Of a stretch of DNA of 33,045 bases, positions 666 through 32,900 are shown piece by piece. Below the pieces are notes generated by a model. That model made no database searches. It had not been told where the DNA came from and worked only from the letters and a program-made list of their open reading frames with translations. The position numbers were made by a program, and so were the translations under genes. How positions within the stretch are numbered: position 1 is the stretch's first letter; every line of letters starts with the position of its first letter. Location: the NCBI GenBank assembly GCA_012862575.1, contig BLSF01000142.1, forward strand, positions 1-33,045, written 5' to 3'. This DNA is from Parietichytrium sp. I65-24A. Its lineage: Eukaryota; Sar; Bigyra; Thraustochytrida; Thraustochytriidae.

Positions 666-684
666 TTAGGTTAGGTTAGGTTAG
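666..684 (+). repeat. Telomere-like TTAGG tract (3.8 units)
   Basis: Nineteen bases read as TTAGG repeated almost four times. It lies immediately 5' of the first recognisable codons of the Fanzor relic; a TAG inside it (672-674) closes the relic's frame upstream. TTAGG is a known telomere repeat in some eukaryotes, but whether this organism uses it is unknown. It could be an interstitial telomere scar or a simple pentanucleotide microsatellite. Confidence 0.6.
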
Positions 685-1722
685 ACCTCCTCGATTCTGT
701 GTCAGTACGATCCTTCGATAAAGCACGAAAGGCTGAGAGATCCAAGAAAAAACGCAGTCAGGCCAAGGGAGCATACTTCAAATTCAAGTCGAGGAAAGAC
801 AAGCAGCAATCGTTCTCAATTCGCTCGAGAGATTGGACTAAGAGCAGGGGTTTCTTTGCACATTTTCGTCATATCGCGCCAGCCAATAACGAAGTGATCC
901 CTTAAAAAGTGCAGCATGAAGTGAAAGTTATGCGAACGCGTCTCGGAAAATATTACATGTGCTTTATGGGAACGATTGAGCGTGGTAGGTGGACACGAAA
1001 AGAGTGCGGAAAAATGAACGCCGAGACAGGTGAGGTCCGATTGCGCGGCAGCCAAGCGCCTGATGGGTCTTTTCATTCGGTTATCTCACTCGACCCCGGT
1101 CTACGTACGATGGTGACTGGTTTTTCGGTTGATGATGGAATGTGCGTGGAATTTGGCAAGAACGGCAGAACTCAAATCTTTCGTCTCTGTAAACATATGG
1201 ACAAGCTCCAACAACTCAAGAATACGATTGAGTTGGACAGGGCGGCAGATGTAAAGATGAAAGATAGACGCTATCTTCGTCTTTGTATCAAACGCCTTAC
1301 GATGGCTTTCCATCGATCCATTCGCAGGATTCGAAACCTCATTGACGAGTTCCAAAAGAAAATGGCTTGTGCGCTATGGAACACTTAGAGAGTCATTCTG
1401 CTCCCCAAATTCGAAACTTCCGGAATGGTGGCGCGCAAATTGCGTCGCAAATTTGGTTCCAAAACTGCACGCATGATGTGCACTTGGGCTCATTATCGTT
1501 TTCGACGAAGACTCATTTCACGCGCCGAATTTGAACGACTGGACAATGTACACTTCAAAAACGTGCGGAATGTGTGGCGCCCATGACCATCATCTTGATC
1601 TTGGATCCTCCAAGACTTTCAATTGCAACAGGCGACACAACGTCAGCGATCGCGACGCGAACGGAGCCAGGAACACCCATTTGAGATACCATACATTGAA
1701 CGAACAGTTTCTCAACAATTAA
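675..1722 (+). pseudogene. Fanzor/TnpB-type RNA-guided nuclease, decayed copy
   Basis: Three collinear pieces give a TnpB-like protein. Piece 1 (675-902) has the Lys/Arg-rich motif KFKSRKDKQQSFSIRSRDW typical of the wedge region. Piece 2 (906-1385, same frame) has TRLGKYYMC and the RuvC-I motif SLDPGLRTMVTGFS (Asp codon 1092-1094). The same frame goes on after TAG with VILLPKFETSGMV and MCTWAHYRFRRRLI. Piece 3 (+1 frame, from about 1531) has YTSKTCGMCG, the zinc-finger half, and RuvC-III SDRDANGARN, ending NTHLRYHTLN as in IS607-type eukaryotic TnpBs (Fanzor2). Lesions: N-terminus missing; in-frame TAA 903-905; TAG 1386-1388; frameshift between about 1480 and 1545, where some nine codons including the RuvC-II Glu appear deleted; and the fourth zinc Cys is Arg (CGA 1633-1635). 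No serine recombinase gene is visible nearby. Family assignment is confident; it should not be active as written. Confidence 0.85.
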
Positions 1723-1830
1723 AACAAGCAAGAGGGCGTGCATTATGTCGCAATTAGTTGCGACACACCCCGTTGGGACTTAACCCCCTTTCTCGTGAAA
1801 ATGAGATTGCGGTCGTGAGAGTCCAATACT
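1723..1830 (+). ncRNA. Candidate omega-RNA scaffold 3' of the Fanzor relic
   Basis: In TnpB/Fanzor loci the guide RNA overlaps or follows the 3' end of the nuclease gene. Here the 3' flank holds a perfect 7-bp hairpin, GTCGCAA (1747-1753) with loop TTAG and TTGCGAC (1758-1764). It is followed by CCC-GTT-GGG (1769-1777), a TCTC...GAGA stem (1791-1806), and a possible long-range GGACT/AGTCC pairing (1776-1780 with 1819-1823). The hairpins are seen directly; the role as omega-RNA is inferred from position and structure, and the scaffold/guide boundary cannot be set. Confidence 0.4.
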
Positions 1831-2162
1831 GAGTTCAATCCTCGTGATCGTTTCATTTGAACAAAGAATTGGAAAGTAATGACAGCCAAAAAAGCCTACG
1901 AAGCTTGATCTTCTTAGGGCTTATAATTTCCTATTTTTCTGAGGTAGTATGGCAAATTTAGTAAGCGCCACTCAACCCCACACCCCACAGCCAGTCAGTC
2001 ACAAGGAGTGTGCCGCACCGTTCTGTCAAAAGCTCGCACGCAAACAGACTGGCACGTGCTCGCCATCTTCCTCTTCGTCGTCTCCTTCTTCTTCTCGAGC
2101 TGGTCAGCTAGGAGGCGAGTTACGCAGAGTCAGTTAACTTGGGTGACGGCGCTTCGGGCGCA
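1831..2162. promoter_or_regulatory. 5' region of the WDR53-like gene
   Basis: Non-coding spacer between the relic and the next gene. It carries the motif CAGTCAGTCACA at 1992-2003, 160 bp before the ATG; the same 12-mer occurs at 5386-5397 upstream of the next gene. A Ser-rich pyrimidine stretch at 2070-2098 is low complexity. No TATA box is evident. Confidence 0.35.
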
Positions 2163-26505: not shown

Positions 26506-26913
26506 TGGAGCCCTTTTTCATCTCCCTGCATTGATTGAACAATGACAAAATGAAAAGTGAACGACTTGAATGAAAAATGAAGAACGATAAGCAAAAATAA
26601 GCGCAATACGCCGCTGACTGCGAGTACGCGGGATTCCGCGAGGACCGGACAGTCTCCGCCGAGTCCAGAGCAGGGTCCCCGATGACTTGCCCAGGGCCCA
26701 TCTACAGCTTCTTCTAAAGCAGGACGATGCACACAGAACAGTGAACTTACTCCCAGACCTTGCGCTGGCCAACTTTGTGCACCGCAGACTTGAACCGCGA
26801 GTACACAGCGTACTCGGCACCGGTCCTCGAGTACCAGCGCCAAGCTGAGCCCGGCAGACCTGCCGCCACCTTGCGGACGTTGGGACGGGTAAATAGAAAA
26901 AGAACAGAGGAGG

Positions 26914-28278
26914 ATGCCAAAGTCTCACGAACAGCAGATATGGCAAGTGGCTGGTGCCGTTTGCGTGGCCCTTGGCGTGGCGTACGTAGCGAGTGTGCTC
27001 CTCGGGAGGAAGCCCGCAAACAAAATGGTCCTCGGGAGAGAGGGCGGCCGCGCTGAAAGAGAGCACGCTTTGATGGAGGAAGCAAAGGATGAGGAGGAAG
27101 GTGGCGGCGCAGTCCGCGTCGCGAAAAAGAATGTGCGCTTCGCCGAAACAGAGAGTGTGGCGCACGAGGAGGAAGAAGAGGAAAAGAAGGTGGTGGATAT
27201 TGAGGACCTGGTGGGAAAGTCTCTCATCCCCGCGACTCTGAGGGAGATGAAGATTGGCGGCATCAAGCCATACACGGACAGGGAACGGGAGGCCAAAGTG
27301 GACGAGCTGGAGTCCAAGAATGAGTTTCCGAGCTTCGACAAGCACCTCGAGAAGAATCAGATTGAGCTCAAGCGGGCGGACACCACCGTGATGCAACTCA
27401 ACATTGGATTCTATTGCAACCAAGCGTGCTCGCATTGCCATGTGGACAGCTCGCCGAAGCGCAAAGATATGATGAACCGAGAAGTGGCCAAGCGGTGCAT
27501 CCAGGTGCTGAAGAACTCTCCAACAATTGATACGGTTGACCTCACCGGCGGCGCCCCGGAATTGAATCGCGAGTTCAAATTCCTTGTGGAGGAGTGCTCC
27601 CGCCTCGGTGTGCATGTCATCGATCGGTGCAACCTAACAGTGTTGCTGGAACCTCACCAGGAACAGCTGCCCGCTTTCCTCGCGCAGCACAAGGTACACG
27701 TCATCGCCAGCCTGCCCTGTTACCTGGAGTCCAATGTTGACAAGCAGCGCGGAGACCAGATTTTCCGCAGGAGCATTAAAGGTTTGCAAATTTTGAATCA
27801 GCACGGATATGGTCGGGAAGGAAGTGGCCTCGAACTTGATCTCGTGTACAATCCTACGGGAATCCACTTGCCCCCTCGCAAAGAAAGTCTCGAAGGAGAC
27901 TACAAACGCGTCTTGCGCGACGAATTTGGAATCGAGTTCAATAGGCTGCACTGCATCACCAATATGCCCATCAACAGGTTTTACGATCACCTCAAGTCTA
28001 CTGGAGACCTCGAGAGGTACATGCACATCCTCGTCAACGCGTTCAACCCGCAAGCGTGCGAGTCGATCATGTGCCGCAACTACGTGTCAGTGAACCCCGA
28101 AGGCTTGTTATTCGATTGTGACTTTAACCAACAAACTGGGTTGATATTGCCTGGCCAAAAGGGCGCCTTGTCGATTTTCGACATTGAGTCCACCAAGGAT
28201 CTATTGCAGGTGCCAATCCAAACCAAAAAGTTTTGCTTTGGGTGCACTGCTGGCGCCGGGTCGAGTTGTAGACAGTAA
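26914..28278 (+). CDS. arsS: ArsS-family radical SAM protein with N-terminal membrane anchor
   Basis: The ATG at 26914 gives 454 residues. Residues about 9-31 (QVAGAVCVALGVAYVASVLL) form one transmembrane helix, followed by a 100-residue acidic linker. The catalytic part starts near 160: MQLNIGFYCNQACSHCHVDS carries the radical SAM CxxxCxxC cluster (Cys168, Cys172, Cys175), and DLTGGAPEL is the SAM-binding Gly motif. The C-terminal half has CRNYVSVNPEGLLFDCDFNQ and ends with CFGCTAGAGSSC, the Cys-rich DUF3641 signature of ArsS. ArsS enzymes are tied to arsenosugar synthesis, proposed to act on dimethylarsinate with SAM-derived 5'-deoxyadenosyl. Bacterial ArsS lacks the membrane anchor, so anchoring to an internal membrane seems a eukaryotic addition. 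No arsenite methyltransferase gene is in this window. The family call is strong; the substrate is from family knowledge. Confidence 0.9.
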   Translation: MPKSHEQQIWQVAGAVCVALGVAYVASVLLGRKPANKMVLGREGGRAEREHALMEEAKDEEEGGGAVRVAKKNVRFAETESVAHEEEEEEKKVVDIEDLVGKSLIPATLREMKIGGIKPYTDREREAKVDELESKNEFPSFDKHLEKNQIELKRADTTVMQLNIGFYCNQACSHCHVDSSPKRKDMMNREVAKRCIQVLKNSPTIDTVDLTGGAPELNREFKFLVEECSRLGVHVIDRCNLTVLLEPHQEQLPAFLAQHKVHVIASLPCYLESNVDKQRGDQIFRRSIKGLQILNQHGYGREGSGLELDLVYNPTGIHLPPRKESLEGDYKRVLRDEFGIEFNRLHCITNMPINRFYDHLKSTGDLERYMHILVNAFNPQACESIMCRNYVSVNPEGLLFDCDFNQQTGLILPGQKGALSIFDIESTKDLLQVPIQTKKFCFGCTAGAGSSCRQ

Positions 28279-28471
28279 TTTTTACCAGTAATCAATCTCC
28301 TCTTACGACATTATTCTTTCTCTTTCGCTCTTCGATCTTTCTCTTCATTCCTCTTCTTTCTTGACCAATCTGTTCTGAAACATCTGCAGGATCGATAATT
28401 TTCTTTACTTCCGTGGCTGTGCAATGGTGTGCAGATCGAAACAAAAAGAAGCGAAAAAAAAAGGTTACAAG
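28279..28471. other. Spacer between ArsS gene and tRNA cluster
   Basis: Pyrimidine-rich 3' flank of the ArsS gene. It ends with an A9 run (28454-28462) that reads as T9 on the minus strand and is the likely polymerase III terminator of the first tRNA gene. Confidence 0.5.
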
Positions 28472-28543
28472 TGAGGGATACCGGAATTGAACCGATGACT
28501 TTTGGGTCTGGAATCCAATGCTCTACCGCTGAACTAATCCCCC
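28472..28543 (-). tRNA. tRNA-Trp (CCA), copy 1
   Basis: 72 nt folding as a full cloverleaf on the minus strand: acceptor GGGGGAT/ATCCCTC (one G-T), D arm GTTC...GAGC, anticodon loop TTCCAGA (anticodon CCA), five-base variable loop, T arm ATCGG-TTCAATT-CCGGT, discriminator A. Internal A box (TTAGTTCAGCGG) and B box (GGTTCAATTCC) match polymerase III promoters. The anticodon stem has an A-C mismatch at 31-39. No intron; CCA is not encoded. A T9 run follows on the minus strand. Confidence 0.93.
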
Positions 28544-28881
28544 ACCTAGTATCGCAGCTCTGTTACGAGTCACGAGGTGCTATAGATCGACCTTCAGCAC
28601 TAGTTATTCCACACGCGAAATTTCTCTTCCCGTGTCCAAAAAAGGAATGGAAAGGCAACCTGACAACTGTCAGCACTCAAGTTCATGGGGAACGCGATTC
28701 TCACATCGGCAAATCGAATAGCAAGCAAGGAATCACAAATAACAGTCAATTTATTCATAAGAAATAAAATTCAACCAAACCGAAAGCGTTATCTTCTGTT
28801 TCAGTCAAATGTGGGTCTCACTCACTACAAGGGTACTCGATCAACAAAAGAAAAAAGAAAAAAGAAAAAGAAAGGTACAAG
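28544..28881. other. Spacer between tRNA copies 1 and 2
   Basis: No ORF or RNA gene recognised. The right end (28850-28872) is an A/G-rich run that gives the T5 terminator of tRNA copy 2 on the minus strand. Confidence 0.5.
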
Positions 28882-28981
28882 TGAGGGATACCGGAATTGA
28901 ACCGATGACTTTTGGGTCTGGAATCCAATGCTCTACCGCTGAACTAATCCCCCACCACCAGCTAATGAACACCAGTTGGTT
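28864..28981 (+). repeat. 118-bp inverted repeat, left arm (contains tRNA copy 2)
   Basis: Reverse complement of 29311-29428 with a single difference (position 28970 against 29322). It covers the tRNA, 28 bp of 5' flank and the terminator side. The spacer between arms is 329 bp. Confidence 0.9.
28882..28953 (-). tRNA. tRNA-Trp (CCA), copy 2
   Basis: Identical over all 72 nt to copies 1 and 3, with the same anticodon CCA and the same A31-C39 mismatch. A T5 run (plus 28865-28869) follows on the minus strand. Confidence 0.93.
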
Positions 28982-29338
28982 GACAGAATTGCACAGGCTG
29001 GACTGTATCTAATTTTCAAAACATCAGTCGCACAGAACAGAAGAATGAGTTTTTGAGAACAGAATAGCAAAACAAGAATAGCAAAATTTTAGACAAACTT
29101 CTTGAACTCAGTGCTTATTGCTTCTTCAAGCCTGCGAACATCCGCGAACTCTTCTTGACACGTGAAACCTCAGTTTGGGACCGCATTCAGCGATATTTAT
29201 GAAGATGTGTGCTGGAACTTTGCGGCGTAAGACATCTCGGCGATCTCGTCGATCTCGTTGGCACCGCTGAAGGTACAGCTTTGATAGAGTGCTGTTCAGG
29301 GATTAGCAGTAACCAACTGGTATTCATTAGCTGGTGGT
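28954..29338. other. Spacer between divergent tRNA copies 2 and 3
   Basis: The outer edges belong to the inverted-repeat arms (to 28981 and from 29311). The 329-bp centre is unique and shows no gene. Confidence 0.5.
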
Positions 29339-29428
29339 GGGGGATTAGTTCAGCGGTAGAGCATTGGATTCCAGACCCAAAAGTCATCGGTTCAATTCCG
29401 GTATCCCTCACTTGTACCTTTCTTTTTC
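29311..29428 (-). repeat. 118-bp inverted repeat, right arm (contains tRNA copy 3)
   Basis: Partner of 28864-28981, 117 of 118 positions complementary. Because the arms include flanking DNA, the pair arose by inverted duplication of a segment rather than by independent tRNA insertion. Confidence 0.9.
29339..29410 (+). tRNA. tRNA-Trp (CCA), copy 3
   Basis: Plus-strand copy identical to the two minus-strand genes. T5 at 29423-29427, and a longer T run further on, provide termination. Confidence 0.93.
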
Positions 29429-29915: not shown

Positions 29916-32900
29916 CTACGAACTTGGGAATGAGATTGCCTCAAGCAGCCCGTGAAGAAAGCCTTTCCGGCGCGAGTTTAGCGTTTCCAGTGCGGCTTTC
30001 GCGTACTTTTGCACTTCAGCATTTCCCGGATGCGCTTGCATGGCCACAACGATCTGCTCAGCAGCGTTTAATTCCTTCAATTTGATTTTATTTTCAGAAT
30101 TCACAGCGAGATTCCAGAGCGCCCCGCACGCGTTTTCTTGCACACCTGCATTCTTCGGATGCGCTTGCATGGCGGCGAGGATCCGTTGAGCAGCGTTTAG
30201 TTTCATCAATTTGATTTGATTTTCAGAATTCACAGCGAGATTCCAAAGCGCTGCGCATGCTAGTATTTGCACTTCGGCATTCTCCGGATGCGCTTGCATG
30301 GCCGCGACGATCCGCTCACCAGCGTTTTGTTGCATCAATTTGATTTCATTTTCAAAATTTTCAGCGAGATTCAAAAGCGTCCCGCANTGCATGGCCGCGA
30401 CGATCCGCTCAGCAGCGTTTTGTTCCATCAACTTGATTTGATTTTCAAATCTGACAGCGAGATTCCGAAGCGCCCCGCACGCCTGTTCTTGCACACCTCC
30501 ATTTTCCGGATGTGCTTGCATGGCCGCGACGATCCGCTCAGCAGCGTTTTGTTGCATCAATTTGATATCATTTTTTAAATTTTTGACGAGATTCCAAAGC
30601 GCCCCGCACGTTAGTCTTTGCACTTCGGCATTTCCTTGATGCGCTCGCATGGCCGCGACGATCCGCTCAGCAGCGTTTTGTTGCATCATTTTGATTTGAT
30701 TTTCAGAATTCACAGCGAGATTCCGAAGCGCCCCGCACGCCTGTTCTTGCACGCCTCCATTCTCCGGATGCGCTTGCATGGCCGCGACGATCCGCTCAGC
30801 AGCGTTTTGTTGCATTAATTTTATTTGATTTCCAGAATTCACAGCGAGATTCCGAAGCGCCCCGCACGCCTGTTCTTGCACACCTTCATTCTCCGGATGC
30901 GCTTGCATGGCCGCGACGATCCGCTCAGCAGCGTTTTGTTGCATCAATTTGATTTGATTTTCAGAATTCACAGCGAGATTCCAAAGCGCCCCGCACGCAT
31001 TCTTTTGCACACCTGCATTCTCCGGATGCGCTTGCATGGCCGCGACGGTCCGCTCACCAGCATTTAGTTCCATCAATTTTATTTTATTTTCAGAATTCAC
31101 AGCGAGATTCAAAAGCGCCCCGCACGCTTTCTCTTGCACACCTGCATTCTCCGGATGCGCTTGCATGGCCGCGACGATCCGCTCAGCAGCGTTTTGTTGC
31201 ATCAATTTGATTTGATTTTCAGAATTCACAGCGAGATTCAAAAGCGCCCCGCACGCTTTTTCTTGCACACCTGCACTCTTCGGATGCGCTTGCATGGCCG
31301 CGACGATCCGCTCAGCAGAGTTTTGTTCCACCAATATTAATTGATTTTCAGAATTCACAGCGAGATTCCGAAGCGCCCCGCACGCCTGTTCTTGCACACC
31401 TACATTCTCCGGATGAGCGTGCATGGCCGCGACGGTCCGCTCACCAGCATTTAGTTCCATCAATTTTATTTTATTTTCAGAATTCACAGCGAGATTCAAA
31501 AGCGCCCCGCACGCTTTCTCTTGCACACCTGCATTCTCCGGATGCGCTTGCATGGCCGCGACGATCCGCTCAGCAGCGTTTTGTTGCATCAATTTGATTT
31601 GATTTTCAGAATTCACAGCGAGATTCCAAAGCGCCCCGCACGCATTCTTTTGCACACCTGCATTCTCCGGATGCGCTTGCATGGCCGCGACAATCCGCTC
31701 AGCAGCGTTTAGTTCCATCAATTTGATTTGATTTTCAGAATTCACAGCGAGATTCCAAAGCGCCCCGCACGCATTCTTTTGCACACCTGCATTCTCCGGA
31801 TGCGCTTGCATGGCCGCGACGGTCCGCTCACCAGCATTTAGTTCCATCAATTTTATTTTATTTTCAGAATTCACAGCGAGATTCCGAAGCGCCCCGCACG
31901 CATTCTTTTGCACACCTGCATTCTCCGGGTGCGCTTGCATGGCCGCGACGGTCCGCTCACCAGCATTTAGTTCCATCAATTTTATTTTATTTTCTGAATA
32001 CACAGCGAGAAACCAAAGCGCTGCGCATGCTAGTCTTTGTACCTCGGCATTCCCCGGATGTGCTTGCATGGCCGCGAGGATCCGCTCAGCAGCGTTTTGT
32101 GCCATCAATTTTATTTGATTTTCACAATTCGCAGCGAGATTCCAAAGCGCTCCGCATGCATTTTCTTGCACACTTGCATTCCCCGGATGCGCTTGCATGG
32201 CCGCGACGATCCGCTGAGCAGAGTTTTGTTGCATCAATTTGATTTGATTTTCAGAATTCACAGCGAGATTCCAGAGCACCCAGCATGCATTTTCTTGCAC
32301 CTTTGCATTCCCCGGATGCGCTTGCATGGCCGCGACAATCCGCTGAGCAGCATTTAGTTTCATCAATTTTATTTTATTTTCAGAATTCACAGCGAGATTC
32401 CGAAGCGCTGCGCATGCAAGTCTTTGCACTTCGGCATTCCCCGGATGCGCTTGCATGGCCGCGACGATTCGCTCAGCAGCGTTTTGTTGCATCAATTTGA
32501 TTTGATTTTCAGAATTCACAGCGAGATTCAAAAGCGCCCCGCACGCTTTTTCTTGCACACCTGCATTCTTCGGATGCTCTTGCATGGCAGCGACGATCCG
32601 CTCAGCAGCGTTTCGTTGCATTAATTTTATTTTATTTTCAGAATTCCCAGCGAGATTCTGAAGCGCTGCGCATGCTAGTCTTTGCACTTCGGCATTCCCC
32701 AGGTGCGCTTGCATGGCCGCGACGATTCGCTCAGCAGCGTTTTGTTCCATCAATTTGATTTTATTTTCAAAATTTACAGCGAGACTCTGAAGCGCTGCAC
32801 ATGCTAGTCTTGCACCTCGGCATTTTCCGCATGCGCTTGCATGGCCGCGACGATTCGCTCAGCAGCGTTTTGTTCCATCAATTTTATTTTATTTTCAGAA

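Follow-up and report, generated by a model that had tools for sequence, protein, structure and literature searches.

Described Fanzor systems and the window copy

Fanzors are eukaryotic, RNA-guided DNA-cutting relatives of TnpB, and a degenerate copy of one, of the Fanzor2 group, lies in contig BLSF01000142.1 of the thraustochytrid Parietichytrium sp. I65-24A. The stretch analysed comprises positions 1 to 33,045 of this contig and is referred to as the window, at its full length of 33,045 nucleotides (nt). The copy belongs to a family of related Fanzor2 copies in the same genome, here called family A. Several Fanzors are described in PMC10432273. NlovFz2, a Fanzor2 of Naegleria, has the target-adjacent motif (TAM) CCG and cuts after nt 19, a combination compatible with the family A junctions, which are known from sequence alone. 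MmeFz2 cuts at 17-18 and 9-14, SpuFz1 at 16-17 and 20-21, and GtFz1 at 14-17. The same source describes Ghost Spu-1 of Spizellomyces, which resembles the short family A copies in possessing a guide-RNA right end without a Fanzor gene; Ghost Spu-1 retains both of its inverted repeats, whereas no left end was found for the short family A copies.

A second described system is the Fanzor1 group of Chlamydomonas. According to PMC3627910, the elements CRe-1, CRe-2 and CRe-3 include 5′-truncated copies in which 7-19 bp are duplicated immediately after TTTT or a T-rich tetranucleotide, and insertions whose 5′ end coincides with that of the consensus are without duplications. Family A shares with these elements the intact 3′ ends, the 5′ truncation and duplications that follow a fixed motif, largely in truncated copies. 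The two differ in that CRe-1/2/3 carry Fanzor1, Helitron2 ends, the motif TTTT and some far longer duplications, whereas family A carries Fanzor2, IS607 tnpA remnants and the motif CCG, in far fewer copies.

The window copy belongs to a Fanzor2 family that may have been copied, at least partly, by abortive RNA-guided homing, a reading to which we give a little less than an even chance. It is based on a constant right end, a variable 5′ start, a CCG-fronted stub at a minority of the left junctions and the presence of open Fanzor2 genes with signs of purifying selection.

Constant right end and 5′ truncation

Of the 15 family A loci, 14 end at a common right end, which reads ...TTAGTAAGCG or a close variant of it. 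The terminal 31-mer had 12 matches in the genome with up to three mismatches and its reversed control had none. The right ends of C40 and C4 are variants with insertions or deletions, which brings the total to 14. C40 carries an insertion near the right end, before the terminal CG. The last two bases of the right end are CG in 12 of the 14 copies. On the left side, no family A copy gave a complete end, C14 included.

The non-coding right end was aligned across ten copies, and the consensus stems include UCCA-UUCU with AGAA-UGGA. On position and conservation rather than structure, this region is a candidate guide-RNA scaffold. Guide sharing between these copies (spread in trans) finds no support, as the right flanks were no more alike than shuffles. 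In this comparison, which covered 13 of the 14 right-end copies and left out C40, the best likeness was 10 of 20 positions, a level that 85% of 500 shuffles also attained.

The 5′ side of the copies is graded. Of the ten within-contig copies C14 extends farthest to the 5′ side, and the other nine are shorter, the smallest measuring about 30 bp. In positions of the C14 locus (L006), blast places the 5′ starts at about 3952 for C40, 4313 for C8, 4470-4490 for the window copy, 5273 for C97 and 5367 for C26. The shortest copies retain about 190 bp (C4), 41 bp (C3) and about 30 bp (C29 and C30). The remaining four right ends (C92, C58, C70 and the end of C9) lie at contig ends, where the 5′ side is not judgeable. 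Searches that start from the right end are biased to it by design; the 2,261-bp C14 query is unbiased. It found C14 itself and seven other loci, all seven of which reach the right end with differing 5′ starts. Among these, C92 is cut at the 5′ side by a contig end and the end of C4 was read separately. The 5′ breaks of five copies (window, C40, C8, C97 and C26) are free of N runs, and a lone N stands right at the start of the C3 copy.

Telomere attachment was also tried as an explanation for the four copies at contig ends, whose 5′ side faces outward, and was rejected; near-identical young copies break assemblies at such places in any case. The pattern (TTAGG)3 was not enriched, with 64 hits in the genome (35 of them in one array of C69) against 55 for the reversed control. 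The C69 array, at 2-187 and thus at the contig start, is the sole long (TTAGG)n array among these hits and points to TTAGG telomeres in the host.

Stubs at the left junctions

Nine junctions could be assessed on both sides, namely those of the window copy, C40, C8, C97, C26, C4, C3, C29 and C30. At three of the nine, the left junction holds CCG and then at least 8 nt that repeat the start of the right flank. The stub after CCG is 8 nt long in C26, 9 nt in C29 and 18-19 nt, with mismatches, in C4. Among 72 mismatched pairs, none had CCG with a stub of at least 8 nt; among 20,000 random windows, 6 did. Expressed as duplicates, the repeats measure 10 nt (C26), 11 nt (C29) and 12 nt (C4), with 6 nt in C8 and C97 and at most 3 nt in the other four copies. 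The longest duplicate in the 72 mismatched pairs was 7 nt, and duplicates of at least 10 nt arose at a frequency of 0.0007 in the 20,000 random windows.

The left copy of the duplicate directly follows ACCG in all three cases, the contexts being TTGACCG, TGAACCG and GTGACCG. If CG is granted as the IS607 core, only the AC just before it adds information. The presence of CCG at three of nine junctions may bear, indirectly, on RNA-guided cutting next to a TAM. Insertion of the IS607 type is characterized by the lack of a target-site duplication. Unlike IS607-type Fanzor2 elements, three of the nine truncated family A copies carry duplications of 8-19 nt, and the copies are shortened at the 5′ side as described above. 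No target duplications were seen, by eye, in two elements of a second Fanzor2 family of this genome (family B, below).

Origin of the truncated copies

Under abortive homing, one chromosome would carry a full element at a CCG motif, and the guide RNA would be a transcript of the element's right end and the adjoining flank. The Fanzor nuclease would cut the empty homologous site up to about 20 nt downstream of CCG. Such a cut would leave CCG and up to about 20 nt at the left, and a right broken end fully homologous to the right flank of the donor. The left broken end would carry a short heterologous stub, so that copying would proceed from the right end toward the 5′ end of the element. This copying would often abort, with the new end joined to the left stub, either trimmed or untrimmed. 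The stubs of 8-9 nt would be trimmed ones, and a stub would never exceed the cut distance. The constant right end, the variable 5′ start and the CCG-fronted stub would all follow, because copying that starts at the right aborts and joins the stub.

A wider form of the proposal, which we put forward more tentatively, is that 5′-truncated, duplication-flanked Fanzor copies, both Fanzor2 here and Fanzor1 in Chlamydomonas, could be fossils of RNA-guided homing. The ‘duplication’ would then be the cut stub on the TAM side, and the offset of the cut would force copying to start at the right end. It is we who infer that a Fanzor is the common cause of both patterns.

Several observations weigh against homing. 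Six of the nine assessable copies, the window copy included, have no stub. The stubs of 8 and 9 nt fall below nearly all of the published cut distances (9-21 nt), so that trimming is needed. The three flanks and the CCG TAM of NlovFz2 were already known when the CCG test was designed; of the 64 trinucleotides CCG alone scores, which merely restates that the three stubs share it. No full-length allele or empty site was seen for these copies. An internal family A piece without the right end exists at C9:179,672-179,831 (L022 1673-1850). The support for a folded guide RNA is modest, with a compensatory double change in 1 of 15 predicted right-end pairs and folding only slightly better than that of shuffles (z of -0.7 to -2.25 in five copies). 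As for Chlamydomonas, PMC3627910 gives TTTT as the insertion motif of ordinary Helitrons of that alga as well, and also reports CRe duplications of 44-443 bp, which a Fanzor cut would not yield. In addition, target-primed reverse transcription would give nearly identical products.

This last process is the basis of an alternative in which the copies are retrocopies, the RNA of the Fanzor element having been reverse-transcribed at a nicked target by a reverse transcriptase of the long interspersed nuclear element (LINE) type or another. In textbook cases such events leave a fixed 3′ end, 5′ truncation to varying extents and duplications like those of 8-19 nt found here, and the terminal CG of the right end overlaps a target CG in the manner of a priming microhomology. 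The enzymes on hand are one weak RVT_1 frame and a Copia-like frame (by eye). Against a retrocopy origin, LINE-type enzymes are scarce: the RVT_1 search, which gives a lower bound, returned two matches, telomerase and one below the cut-off near a contig end. The right ends seen stop in GCG or GAG without an A-rich tail, all 12 matches of the terminal 31-mer were counted as Fanzor right ends with none at other elements, and the agreement of CCG with a Fanzor2 TAM is left unexplained. A retrocopy origin is considered rather unlikely. A further possibility is that ordinary IS607 insertions were afterwards shortened at the 5′ side by deletions at random, in which case the stubs would be coincidental. 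The six stubless copies among nine and the internal piece without a right end agree with this, but deletion at random does not account for a right end kept at 14 of 15 loci, and at all seven others found with the unbiased query, nor for stubs at three of nine junctions set against the counts in mismatched pairs and random windows; we regard it as improbable. Bao and Jurka proposed for the CRe Fanzor1 elements a copying of the Helitron2 type, and this or another one-ended copying of DNA from the 3′ end could be extended to family A. PMC3627910 reports a similar 5′-truncation bias with duplications, and the genome has one Helitron with open Rep and helicase frames. Yet a blast comparison of the 10-kb Helitron locus with 13 family A loci left the right end unmatched (the ends of the Helitron itself being undefined), and its best match, of 36 bp (E 2e-6), falls in the C40 flank outside the element. 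Ordinary Chlamydomonas Helitrons make no target duplications according to the same paper, and C14 has IS607 tnpA remnants over its Fanzor frame (by eye). Such copying is judged decidedly improbable for family A.

Three of the loci named in these comparisons deserve a brief description in their own right. The Helitron occupies L031 1551-6062, with open Rep and PIF1-helicase frames, and is the single Helitron_like_N match in the genome search. The Copia-polymerase-like frame (by eye) is located at L017 1-1130, near the 3′ end of an 18S rRNA at the end of contig C16. The internal piece at L022 1673-1850, truncated on both sides, shares about 95% identity with C26 and fits none of the explanations offered.

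Structure and decay of the window copy

The features of the window copy and its surroundings are as follows, all on the + strand.

666-684, + strand: TTAGGTTAGGTTAGGTTAG at the 5′ junction (TTAGG pattern match at 666-680)
683-1967, + strand: degenerate 5′-truncated Fanzor2 copy of family A (blastn against the C8 copy; right end placed by motif at 1967)
903-905, + strand: in-frame stop TAA
906-1388, + strand: longest open piece of the Fanzor2 pseudogene, 160 amino acids (aa)
1092-1100, + strand: RuvC-I DPG, within the open piece 906-1388
1386-1388, + strand: in-frame stop TAG
1526-1545, + strand: frame break, one extra base and a 21-bp gap at 1544/1545 relative to C8 and C14 (DNA alignments)
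1549-1674, + strand: zinc-finger (TNB) and RuvC-III part with one Cys lost (PF07282 match; translation)
1720-1722, + strand: end of the coding remnant
1723-1967, + strand: conserved non-coding right end, candidate omega (re)RNA scaffold, with the constant terminus at 1937-1967 (10-copy alignment, consensus stems, 31-mer matches)
1968-1987, + strand: right flank, the place of the guide (former target) sequence by position only; right flanks vary among copies

The window is contig C142 of a 42.5-Mb assembly of 172 contigs. The eukaryotic nature of this genome is evident from SSU_rRNA_eukarya matches (18S 3′ ends only), a telomerase gene and the (TTAGG)n array. The copy is flanked by two WD40-repeat reading frames.

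The window copy is a dead Fanzor2: besides being truncated at the 5′ side, it lacks one zinc Cys, and its frame is interrupted by two stops and a break. It begins inside the coding region and is without the 5′ part, so that no tnpA is present. Its nearest copy is that of C8, with 82.4% identity over 1,308 bp for window positions 683-1968 (blastn). DNA alignments with relatives place the extra base near 1526-1528, and reveal an in-frame 6-bp insertion as well. In the same alignments, read with a protein alignment of the open relatives, the 21-bp gap deletes the stretch with the alternative RuvC-II glutamate. The C4 finger reads NCNRRHN, at a point where C8 and other relatives retain the Cys. 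The right end at 1967 is 245 bp past the coding end.

The kinship of these pieces is not due to chance, because the piece at 906-1388 matches four other places in the genome: C8 (72%), C14 (73%) and C40 (70%), with E-values of 4e-71 to 9e-70, and C116 (34%, E 1e-8). PF07282 matches window positions 1549-1674 above its curated cut-off (E 6e-6), as the weakest of 12 matches in the genome.

The junction itself contains a (TTAGG)3 match from the genome pattern search, which falls exactly on the 5′ junction of the element. The TTAGG here looks like the telomere repeat of this genome, and TTAGGTTAGGTTAGGTTAG is read as filler at an end-joining junction.

The first-pass annotation of this DNA had described a Fanzor fossil at 675-1722. 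Its collinear RuvC-I, zinc-finger and RuvC-III pieces were recovered by translation and the PF07282 match, and translation and DNA alignments bear out the two in-frame stops, the frameshift with deletion and the lost Cys. The assignment to the IS607-linked Fanzor2 branch is backed by PF07282, guided_TnpB, the structural relative L79 and the IS607 tnpA of the relatives. The profile search it proposed gave PF07282 above cut-off in the window and guided_TnpB above cut-off for C40, and the proposed genome search for intact copies led to the open relatives C14 and C40, which have the RuvC residues and a signature of purifying selection. Its other statements need revision. The insertion was called fairly recent, and the nearest copy is just 82% identical; the decay was described as confined to a few lesions, and the entire 5′ region is absent; the element starts at about 683, and its conserved right end reaches 1967. 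The fossil is real and in itself ordinary. The right end and the truncation pattern, absent from that annotation, are the most interesting part.

Fanzor2 and IS607 relatives in the genome

A Fanzor2 fingerprint of DPG in RuvC-I, an alternative RuvC-II glutamate, a C4 zinc finger and RD in RuvC-III was taken from PMC10711439. All four features are present in the open family A frames of C14 (591 aa) and C40 (530 aa). In a protein alignment both retain the D, alternative E and D of the RuvC triad. The C14 Fanzor frame contains one N, in its upstream part, where the frames overlap. The model guided_TnpB (NCBIfam, cut-off 100) scored 106.1 bits for C40, and fell below the cut-off for C134 (77.9 bits) and C116 (66.2 bits). 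The best relative of solved structure is the mimivirus TnpB-like protein L79 (PDB 9b0l), with E-values of 1e-13 for family A, 1e-18 for family B and 2e-28 for a joint profile. The likeness to L79, of the IS607-type Fanzor2 elements, extends to DPG, the alternative glutamate, the C4 finger and RD.

Over 517 codons, the comparison of C14 with C40 gave dN 0.031 and dS 0.110 by NG86, 0.034 and 0.081 by YN00, and 0.030 and 0.095 by LWL85; 35 of 71 changes are at third codon positions. This is a signature of purifying selection on the C14 and C40 Fanzor2 genes.

Family B (C61 and C134) is a 2,093-bp element, with 97.1% identity between its two copies. It carries a 637-aa Fanzor frame overlapped by an IS607-type tnpA frame, which has one stop in each copy, at different positions. 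Of the 44 changes between C61 and C134 in the Fanzor-only part, 25 are synonymous, where 27% would be expected. In family C (C116), which lies next to an Erv1-like gene, the IS607 tnpA is open and the Fanzor frame is broken. The IS607 TnpA model NF033518 (cut-off 110) scored 149 bits for C116 and 142 bits for C134. C14 has broken IS607 tnpA remnants that overlap its Fanzor frame (read by eye only). The overlap with tnpA in families B and C is likewise found in IS607-type Fanzor2 elements. The family A Fanzor2 elements are read as derived from IS607-type transposons. Other PF07282 matches are fragments, in C36, at a second place on C116 and in C6 (partly N).

Some further observations concern families A, B and C. 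In each, the frames of tnpA and of the Fanzor2 N-terminal extension overlap (L010 3333-5425, - strand; L011 3250-5342, + strand; L009 4995-5874, - strand; L006 3000-4150). A motif F.PFW...S..LP is shared by their Fanzor frames (read by eye). Between C61 and C134 the overlap is slower-changing: its 690 nt differ by 10 changes, and the 1,191 nt outside it by 44.

Contig C116 (L009, L016) includes a virus-like stretch, in which an Erv1/Alr-type thiol oxidase and a WLM domain lie near the IS607 tnpA and broken Fanzor pieces. The family B elements (L010, L011) are in stretches of 43% G+C, compared with 49-52% in ten other loci, and an ankyrin-repeat frame adjoins the element in L010. The surroundings of family B are possibly foreign DNA. 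A viral source for the elements was sought in single-protein searches, reaching close relatives only, and no source was found there: C40 matched three viral-contig loci at 22% identity and C61 none. Two of the three loci were inspected, and both read like prokaryotic TnpB elements.

Other features of the window

Elsewhere in the window, three tRNA-Trp genes, two on the minus strand and one on the plus strand, are found at 28471-29411. A 980-aa ARM-repeat frame occupies 29916-32858. A radical SAM and DUF3641 gene lies at 26893-28278, which we take to be possibly of the arsenosugar type.

Implications for Fanzor biology

These scars would bear on what Fanzors do for their elements in native hosts. 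PMC10432273 (2023, Nature) suggests that cuts made at the sister chromosome may favour propagation, and states that genetics in native hosts would be needed. The sister-chromosome idea is already published, and what is new here is the reading of homing from junction scars. No literature titles on Fanzor homing scars were found within the literature and wording searched. A family of truncated copies, a minority of them bearing TAM-like scars, merits a proper test.

If the proposal is true, it would explain the pattern published by Bao and Jurka in 2013, and it could be tested by surveys of truncated copies. The TAM and the cut distance of a Fanzor would then be readable from the genome sequence alone. 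If the junction scars are products of Fanzor cutting, they would be natural evidence of RNA-guided homing in eukaryotes, and Fanzors would have behaved in eukaryote genomes as homing nucleases, in the manner of a gene drive.
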